In this document: in pieces, positions 42,831 through 51,770 of the stretch
Numbering within the stretch: position 1 is the first letter of the stretch
Layout: each line of letters begins with the position of its first letter
The notes under the pieces: generated by a model
What the model saw: only the letters and a program-made list of their open reading frames with translations
The model's database searches: none
Told to the model about the DNA's origin: nothing
From: Nanobdellati archaeon
GTDB taxonomy: Archaea > EX4484-52 > WAPT01
NCBI GenBank assembly: GCA_027038505.1
Contig: JALVWC010000013.1
Coordinates: 1 to 55,794, forward strand
DNA length: 55,794 nt
Direction: 5' to 3'
Position numbers and translations under genes: made by a program

Positions 42831-42920
42831 CAACCCCCTCCGCTTTTTTAGCATGCATTTTTTGAGCTATAGGTTACACTAACGAAATGTTTTTATTTTC
42901 CAAAGTACCCACTATTATTT

Positions 42921-43081
42921 GCCCGCAAGAAGCCGAGCGGTCTGTACGCTGAGTAAAAGCTGCAGACTGCAAGATAGTTTAAGCCCGCAAAACCTTCAGC
43001 CCGCAACAGCTGATCTGAATTTTTGCCCGCAAAATTTTTCCCGTGTAAGCCGGAAGTTTGTGATCTGATTCTTCAGCCCGC
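42921..43081 (+). repeat. Five GCCCGC repeats in the ftsZ / tRNA / orc1 intergenic region
   Basis: GCCCGCAA occurs at 42921-42928, 42983-42990, 42999-43006 and 43025-43032, with GCCCGCTT at 43076-43083, all in the same orientation. Larger units are partly shared: CTTCAGCCCGC at 42994-43004 and 43071-43081, and TGATCTGA-WTT-N(2-4)-GCCCGC at 43011-43030 and 43061-43081. An AT-rich stretch follows at 43082-43160. Iterated short words beside an AT-rich tract and an orc1/cdc6 gene resemble an archaeal replication origin; they could instead be ftsZ operators. Confidence 0.6.
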
Positions 43082-43230
43082 TTAATTAAATCCTGCCGTT
43101 AATACCTATATAAATCTTTTCGTTGGATTAAATAGAATTTTGAAAATATATATCCCGGATGGGTACTTGACTCCTGTTGAATTGGCGAAGCATTCTCAGC
43201 TTCATGCAAATTTTTTAAAATTACCCTTCT

Positions 43231-43239: not shown

Positions 43240-43301
43240 TCGTCACAATGCCGTTGGTTTTCCGGTCCCGTAGCTCAGCTGGTTGGAGCGCCGGTCTTAT
43301 A

Positions 43302-43351
43302 TGACCGCAGGGGCAAAAGATTGCGATGAATTTCGCCCCTGTGTCTTGGCC
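43302..43351 (+). other. Probable tRNA-Ile intron 1, anticodon loop
   Basis: About 50 nt after position 37. Its core folds as CAGGGGC/GCCCCTG, extended to nine pairs (43306-43314 with 43335-43343). A canonical bulge-helix-bulge is not fully resolved: GGTC/GGCC is one candidate central helix. Confidence 0.65.
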
Positions 43352-43373
43352 AGCCGGAGGTCGGGGGTTCGAA

Positions 43374-43418
43374 AGCCAGCCAGAAGGAGAAAATAAGGGT
43401 TTGATGGCTGGCAGAACA
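43374..43418 (+). other. Probable tRNA-Ile intron 2, T-loop position 59/60
   Basis: About 45 nt. Helix GCCAGCC (43375-43381) pairs exactly with GGCTGGC (43406-43412). Exon-side GTTC (43367-43370) pairs with GAAC (43414-43417), giving a 4-bp helix between a GAA and an ATC bulge: a good bulge-helix-bulge splice motif. Confidence 0.75.
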
Positions 43419-43529
43419 TCCCCCCGGGACCATCTTTTTCTGTATTGAATCGGTGTTATCTTTTTTATTCATTCGGTGGTGCTCTCAAAAATCGTTACGT
43501 TTTTACCTTTTCCTGTTCAGATTTAGATT

Positions 43530-51638: not shown

Positions 51639-51770
51639 TGGTGCGGGGGGTGGGATTTGAACCCACGAACCCACTTAGGGAATGGACCGCTGCGGCGCTG
51701 CCAACCCTACACACACCGCGGCGGCTGCCCCCTCAAGGCAGCGCCTTTGGCCAGGCTCGGCAACCCCCGC
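51639..51770 (-). tRNA. tRNA-Leu (GAG) with a 43-nt insertion
   Basis: Acceptor, D-arm and T-arm match the tRNA-Leu (UAG) gene almost base for base, and CCA is again encoded (51639-51641). The anticodon stem-loop CTGCC-TTGAGGG-GGCAG (51725-51741) gives anticodon GAG. Between this stem and the variable arm (CCC-TAAGT-GGG) lie 43 extra bases, 51682-51724. Removing them gives 89 nt with CCA, exactly the length of the neighbour. Confidence 0.9.
51682..51724 (-). other. Probable intron in the tRNA-Leu (GAG) variable arm
   Basis: The insertion folds by pairing CCGCCGCGG with CCGCAGCGG (nine positions, one C-A mismatch) around a 20-nt loop. It lies at about position 43/44-45, a non-canonical site. 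The splice motif is not clearly resolved, and GGCAG occurs both at the true stem and inside the insertion. Confidence 0.65.

Follow-up and report, generated by a model that had tools for sequence, protein, structure and literature searches.

A tRNA-Ile(UAU) gene interrupted in both its anticodon loop and its T-loop raises two questions: does such a gene work, and which enzyme could splice its transcript? In the accepted picture, scattered tRNA introns are tied to heteromeric or loop-bearing forms of the splicing endonuclease, EndA. The gene lies on a contig of a Nanobdellati archaeon (GenBank assembly GCA_027038505.1, contig JALVWC010000013.1), all 55,794 nucleotides of which were analysed (hereafter, the window). 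The host genome, G000, contains the window; G001 and G002 are the genomes of the other two species of the same genus. The best explanation of the locus, very probable as a whole, is that it is a functional UAU gene whose bulge-helix-bulge (BHB) introns would be spliced by EndA and RtcB, in a lineage in which introns accumulated in the T-loop and the catalytic lysine of EndA may have been relocated; the lysine replacement is its least certain part.

The sequence-only reading of this DNA had proposed that the gene is interrupted at positions 37/38 and 59/60 and that removal of 50 and 45 nt yields a 74-nt tRNA, which proved correct to the base (Table 1). The joined exons form a cloverleaf with all four stems paired, the anticodon UAU, and the discriminator A. 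The insertion in the T-loop keeps both ARAGORN and Rfam from calling the gene. When the window was scanned strictly with introns allowed, it was recovered with a score of 39, together with two intronless tRNAs, and the chance control, 40 Markov-simulated windows, gave one weaker match (score 36). Elsewhere in the window (51639-51770, minus strand), ARAGORN calls an Ala or Ser tRNA that is better read as a tRNA-Leu(GAG) with a variable-arm intron, given its Leu-type body and intact anticodon arm (CTGCC-TTGAGGG-GGCAG).

Table 1. Elements of the tRNA-Ile(UAU) locus, 43264-43432, and its immediate surroundings (positions in the window).
Element	Positions	Strand	Length (nt)	Description
Probable TATA-like promoter element	43211..43223	+		TTTTTTAAAATTA; inferred
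tRNA-Ile(UAU) exon 1	43264..43301	+	38	Positions 1-37: acceptor 5' strand, D-arm, anticodon stem 5' strand, C32 T33 TAT A37; identical in G001 and G002
Intron 1	43302..43351	+	50	Canonical position 37/38; intron helix GAC-GTC plus GCAGGGGC/GCCCCTGT
Exon 2	43352..43373	+	22	Positions 38-59: A38 GCCGG AGGTC GGGGG TTCGAA
Intron 2	43374..43418	+	45	T-loop position 59/60; BHB motif
Exon 3	43419..43432	+	14	Positions 60-73: T CCCCC CGGGACC A; CCA not encoded
T-rich run immediately after the gene	43433..43441	+		Possible terminator, from sequence only

As in archaeal introns of the EndA type, BHB motifs stand at both exon-intron joins, excision leaves a normal tRNA, and the genome encodes both EndA and the ligase RtcB. 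At intron 2, the exon (outer) helix is the T-stem, the two bulges are of 3 nt each (AA|A and CA|T), the intron helix GCCAGCC/GGCTGGC is of at least 7 bp, and a cut after the second bulge nucleotide restores the normal loop TTCGAAT. The motif is therefore as well formed as had been noticed, save for the central helix, in which TTCG (positions 54-57) faces AGAA (the end of the intron) with three Watson–Crick pairs and a G.A opposition rather than four pairs. With this opposition, common to all three species, the helix falls a little short of the strict consensus, and so does the central helix of intron 1 in the host species (CTTA/TTGG, 3/4 pairs); in G001, the latter reads CTTA/TAGG and has 4/4 pairs. 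Judged by its pairing, intron 2 is essentially a canonical BHB at a non-canonical position. A relaxed endonuclease, which the sequence-only reading had thought necessary for non-canonical sites, is thus not required by the T-loop site; the enzyme must only accept a BHB in the T-loop. Indeed, all 33 T-loop introns examined have at least three of the four central pairs (4/4 in 27 and 3/4 in 6), with at least three contiguous intron-helix pairs in 26, and most clearly differ from shuffles of the same intron; the parser gave a bonus for BHB pairing among solutions, and the boundaries were fixed by T-stem and acceptor pairing. One point against the proposed splicing is that, in the predicted minimum-energy fold of the precursor, a competing hairpin (CGGUC-UUAUAU-GACCG) is preferred over the 37/38 BHB.

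Splicing would proceed as follows. The transcript would fold so that both introns are flanked by BHB motifs, the single EndA would cleave behind the second nucleotide of each bulge, and the exons would then be ligated by RtcB. For the T-loop site, nearly all that the enzyme needs would come from the universal exon sequence, with the T-stem as the outer helix, TTCR (54-57) as one side of the central helix, and AA|T as the 5' bulge, and an insert with complementary arms at its start and end, and ending in approximately YGAAAA, would make a good site. This may be why introns accumulated at 59/60 in many tRNAs of the lineage, partly, it would seem, as copies passed between tRNA genes. The sequences establish the structure of the gene, its conservation, the intron load, the absence of TiaS from the assemblies, and the substitution and insertion in EndA; we infer the splicing of both introns, the cleavage by EndA, the ligation by RtcB, the essentiality of the gene, the order of events, the mode of intron spread, and the lysine replacement.

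Which form of EndA could make these cuts? One EndA gene was found in each of the host genome and G001, and no second EndA-like gene at E values up to 10 in either, which led us to reject a second, weak EndA subunit. At 195 aa, the host protein carries both Pfam EndA domains, the N- and the C-domain, as in alpha4 enzymes with one gene and a single two-domain subunit of about 180-200 aa. Its AlphaFold model (monomer, pLDDT 86) has as best PDB fold match 1a79 from M. jannaschii (TM 0.79/0.90). The check on subunit type proposed with the sequence-only reading thus points to a single, small, homotetramer-like (alpha4-like) subunit. The Tyr/His/Lys triad of alpha4 enzymes is, however, incomplete: Y124 and H141 are present, as is the conserved Arg, but the position of the lysine is occupied by A172. 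This Lys-to-Ala change (IRA/VRA) is found in 14/14 sequences of the host's order, in 7/7 of family f24, and in 2/2 of family f64; the lysine is kept in the 20 other EndAs compared, including four from solved structures. The lost residue aligns with K282 of the ARMAN-2 enzyme (triad Y236/H251/K282, numbers that the alignment reproduces), in which K282A abolishes cleavage (PMC12397907).

In all 23 Lys-to-Ala EndAs, an insertion immediately precedes the catalytic histidine; 22 of them have a lysine at G-x-K, and the remaining one has a lysine nearby. In the order, the motif is Y-x-R-G-V-N-P-Y-K-x-G-x-K-x-x-[KR]-[ED]-H. EndA here has lost its ancestral catalytic lysine; the lysine of this 7-residue insertion beside the histidine (K136 in the host) is the most likely substitute, a replacement that we propose tentatively from the sequence correlation. 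Insertions at the same place also occur where the old lysine is kept (Nanoarchaeum 3iey, G072, G092, and G202); the loop may therefore predate the loss of that lysine.

Two other accounts of this enzyme have to be weighed. Host EndA, having lost its lysine, might be inactive or structural, with an unrecognised second enzyme or subunit making the cuts. The effect of the alanine mutation in ARMAN-2 (PMC12397907) argues for this, as do two f64 genomes (G139 and G294), each of which has two EndA genes, one for a lysine-less single-domain protein and one for an ARMAN-like long protein that keeps the lysine; in these genomes, a structural role for the lysine-less form is possible. The host and G001, however, yielded no such second gene in the search above, this EndA retains its catalytic Tyr and His as well as the conserved Arg, and the G-x-K lysine recurs almost throughout the Lys-to-Ala sequences, which makes an inactive host EndA unlikely. 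The second account attributes the introns to a short CSL/ASL-like loop (FGKW[VI]EEEK[VI]) that would give this EndA the broad specificity of the crenarchaeal or ARMAN type. There are indeed extra residues at the loop position, and the host's K-V-K resembles the K-[PV]-[KR] of CSL (PMC12397907). Broad-specificity CSL/ASL enzymes, however, have a loop of 11-18 residues (15-18 in CSL, 11 in ASL) and a conserved lysine near the active site, whereas the EndAs of the host's order have only 3-4 extra residues and a lysine that is not conserved across the order; it is absent from a subgroup that has T-loop introns (IDIEDVS; G023, G027, and G033). Moreover, G045 and G055 have T-loop matches, at the level of the pattern rather than of whole tRNAs, alongside single-subunit EndAs that lack the insertion. 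The alignment does not support the CSL explanation, which we regard as improbable. The preferred reading, then, is of an alpha4-like enzyme acting on near-canonical motifs, possibly with a relocated lysine.

How far do such introns extend? In the host genome, T-loop (59/60) introns interrupt at least nine tRNAs, namely Ile(UAU), Leu(UAA), Glu(CUC), Arg(GCG), Ser(GCU), Ser(CGA), Ser(GGA), Pro(UGG), and His(GUG), and the sister species G001 has at least 23, these inventories being lower bounds obtained from searches and short stretches. D-arm introns were found in Arg(UCG) of the host and in Arg(UCU), Arg(CCU), and Val(CAC) of G001. Eleven intron pairs from different tRNAs, all within G001, exceed the highest score reached in 3000 shuffled comparisons; among them are Gly(UCC)/Glu(UUC), Gly(CCC)/Cys, Pro(CGG)/Pro(UGG), and Ala(GGC)/Thr(GGU); the same comparison gave no such pair within the host genome. 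The similarity of introns in different tRNAs, a mark of transposition of the Thermoproteales type, is thus seen in G001 only; it suggests that introns were copied between tRNA genes in this lineage.

At the level of the order, the T-loop intron pattern matches 22 of 34 genomes, in which the reversed-pattern control matches none; the matches were only partly checked by hand. The best matches of the host's FtsZ are in MAGs named 'archaeon', 'DPANN group archaeon', 'Candidatus Aenigmatarchaeota', and 'Candidatus Nanohalarchaeota', which places the host in a DPANN-type lineage. The expectation that such introns are rare in archaea with gyrase and FtsZ consequently fails for the host's DPANN order, where T-loop introns are common. 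The spacer between the tRNA gene and ftsZ (42915-43085 in the window) contains several copies of a short CCCGCAA-like motif, and G001 has a comparable set upstream of its ftsZ. The tRNA-Ile(UAU) genes parsed from other families of the order have the 37/38 intron only, which suggests that this gene gained its T-loop intron at the genus level. The doubly interrupted Ile(UAU) is not unique, however, since at least six genomes outside the order parse likewise. The idea that a UAU tRNA always needs a 37/38 intron (for pseudouridylation) is also weakened: this intron is present in 56 of 69 parsed archaeal tRNA-Ile(UAU) genes. A wider claim would be that a DPANN clade has a class of EndA in which a lysine from a new loop beside the catalytic histidine stands in for the universal catalytic lysine, and that this enzyme serves a genome-wide colonisation of the invariant T-loop by mobile BHB introns, including that of its sole AUA-reading tRNA; we consider this possible rather than probable.

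Other observations concern these and further genomes. In many unrelated DPANN-like genomes, the 37/38 introns of tRNA-Ile(UAU) share a start like TGRCNACGTTCTGNTACA, which the host genus lacks. The elongator Met, Trp, and Leu(CAA) tRNA genes of the host have 37/38 introns with TGATGA/ATGA and CTGA motifs like those of box C/D guide RNAs; in Nanoarchaeum, the Met intron is known to contain a stable C/D RNA (PMC3491384). In G001, a 9-kb contig (C11) carries clustered bacterial-type Thr-Gly-Tyr-Thr tRNAs and is probably contamination of that MAG, and a tRNA-like gene at C3:58900-59240 keeps its T-arm intact and carries a long, base-paired insertion in the region of the anticodon.

Is the doubly interrupted gene alive? 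It occurs with both introns in all three genomes of the genus, and its exons are identical among the three species (38/38, 22/22, and 14/14, or 74/74 positions). Between the host and G001, identity is 34/50 in intron 1, 23/45 in intron 2, and about 40% in the flanks (92/224 aligned positions for the upstream 200 nt, and 84/220). The string TTTTTTAAAATTACC is present upstream of the gene in G001 despite this divergence, as well as in G002, and the element in Table 1 is probably a promoter element. The helices have changed in a compensatory manner: from the host to G001, AGGGGC/GCCCCT of intron 1 becomes GGGAGC/GCTCCC, and the fifth pair of the intron 2 helix goes from G-C to T-A.

Most archaea read AUA with the agmatidine-containing tRNA-Ile2(CAU) made by TiaS. 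In the host's order, TiaS (PF08489) was found in none of 34 genomes, the same search being positive in 15 of 27 other archaea. The combination of a UAU anticodon with an absent TiaS is that of TiaS-less AUA decoding. Only one UAU tRNA gene was found in the host genome (0.88 Mb and 94% complete; a further tRNA-Ile or second EndA subunit may lie in the gap, although several relatives agree), and the two CAU tRNAs recovered look like those for initiator and elongator Met. An intact UAU copy elsewhere, once considered as a sign of a dead gene here, therefore did not turn up, and the usual alternative, TiaS, is absent. Furthermore, ATA is the commonest Ile codon (349/633, or 55%, in the 15 window ORFs counted). 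With one UAU gene found, no TiaS, and ATA in such use, the tRNA should be indispensable. We take the locus to be a functional and, as far as the assembly shows, the only tRNA-Ile(UAU) gene, the reader of AUA.

The T-loop segment might instead be kept in the mature RNA as an extended arm, since it folds as a stable hairpin continuous with the T-stem. Its retention would, however, destroy the elbow between the T-loop and the D-loop; such segments vary in length (16-59 nt) and sequence across tRNAs and species while the splice-motif nucleotides are kept; and the same tRNA lacks the segment in other families of the order. A retained segment is hence very improbable. Still less credible is a decaying gene killed by its insertions, with another tRNA reading AUA: the failure of standard finders to call the gene is in its favour, but the identity of the exons in three species with diverged flanks, the failure to find a second UAU gene or TiaS, the Met-like character of both CAU tRNAs recovered, and the use of ATA led us to reject it. 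A spliced, working tRNA-Ile(UAU) remains the preferred reading.

These results bear on more than one locus. The lineage has a single-gene, alpha4-like EndA and yet many introns at one invariant site, and this EndA lacks a residue whose replacement by alanine inactivates the enzyme of a relative. Two testable questions follow: which features really license the spread of introns, and can the RNase A-like triad of splicing endonucleases be rewired? The results also suggest that UAU-based decoding of AUA is widespread among archaea and that, in genomes of this kind, essential tRNAs escape standard tRNA finders. Searches of the literature outside subscription journals turned up neither T-loop introns nor an EndA lacking the lysine in these archaea.

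Compared with known systems, the multi-intron tRNAs of Thermoproteales, Korarchaeum, and ARMAN are alike in their short, BHB-flanked introns, in having several per gene, and in using the 59/60 site, which is among the known archaeal intron sites (PMC4090602). The differences lie in the host, a DPANN archaeon whose one EndA is alpha4-like rather than (alpha-beta)2 or epsilon2, and in its introns, which are concentrated at a single site, 59/60, with a near-canonical BHB. Thermoproteales average 0.84 introns per tRNA (PMC8450103); there, transposition is suggested by the likeness of introns in different tRNAs (Fujishima 2010, cited in PMC4033280). Alpha4 and alpha2 enzymes have been described as restricted to canonical BHB motifs, with Korarchaeum named as the sole alpha2 species with non-canonical introns (PMC4033280).

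As in Nanoarchaeum equitans and Korarchaeum cryptofilum, the UAU anticodon replaces TiaS and tRNA-Ile2(CAU), but the K. cryptofilum gene has one intron, whereas the host gene has a second, in the T-loop (PMC6000648, PMC8450103). A tRNA-Ile(UAU) was reported in only 2 of 167 archaeal genomes in 2018 (PMC6000648), far below the 84 of 346 sampled here that match the UAU tRNA pattern. In a eukaryotic case (PMC9602550), the same tRNA is interrupted in the anticodon and T-arm, with introns at 12/13, 37/38, and 53/54, a likeness that is presumably convergent. Host EndA resembles the alpha4 enzyme of Methanocaldococcus jannaschii (1a79) in fold, size, and the catalytic Tyr and His; it differs in having Ala for the catalytic Lys, the 7-residue lysine-bearing insertion, and a short extra loop at the CSL/ASL site. 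The chemistry and position of the introns are, then, known from other archaea; what is new is the lineage, the high density of the introns, and the altered EndA.
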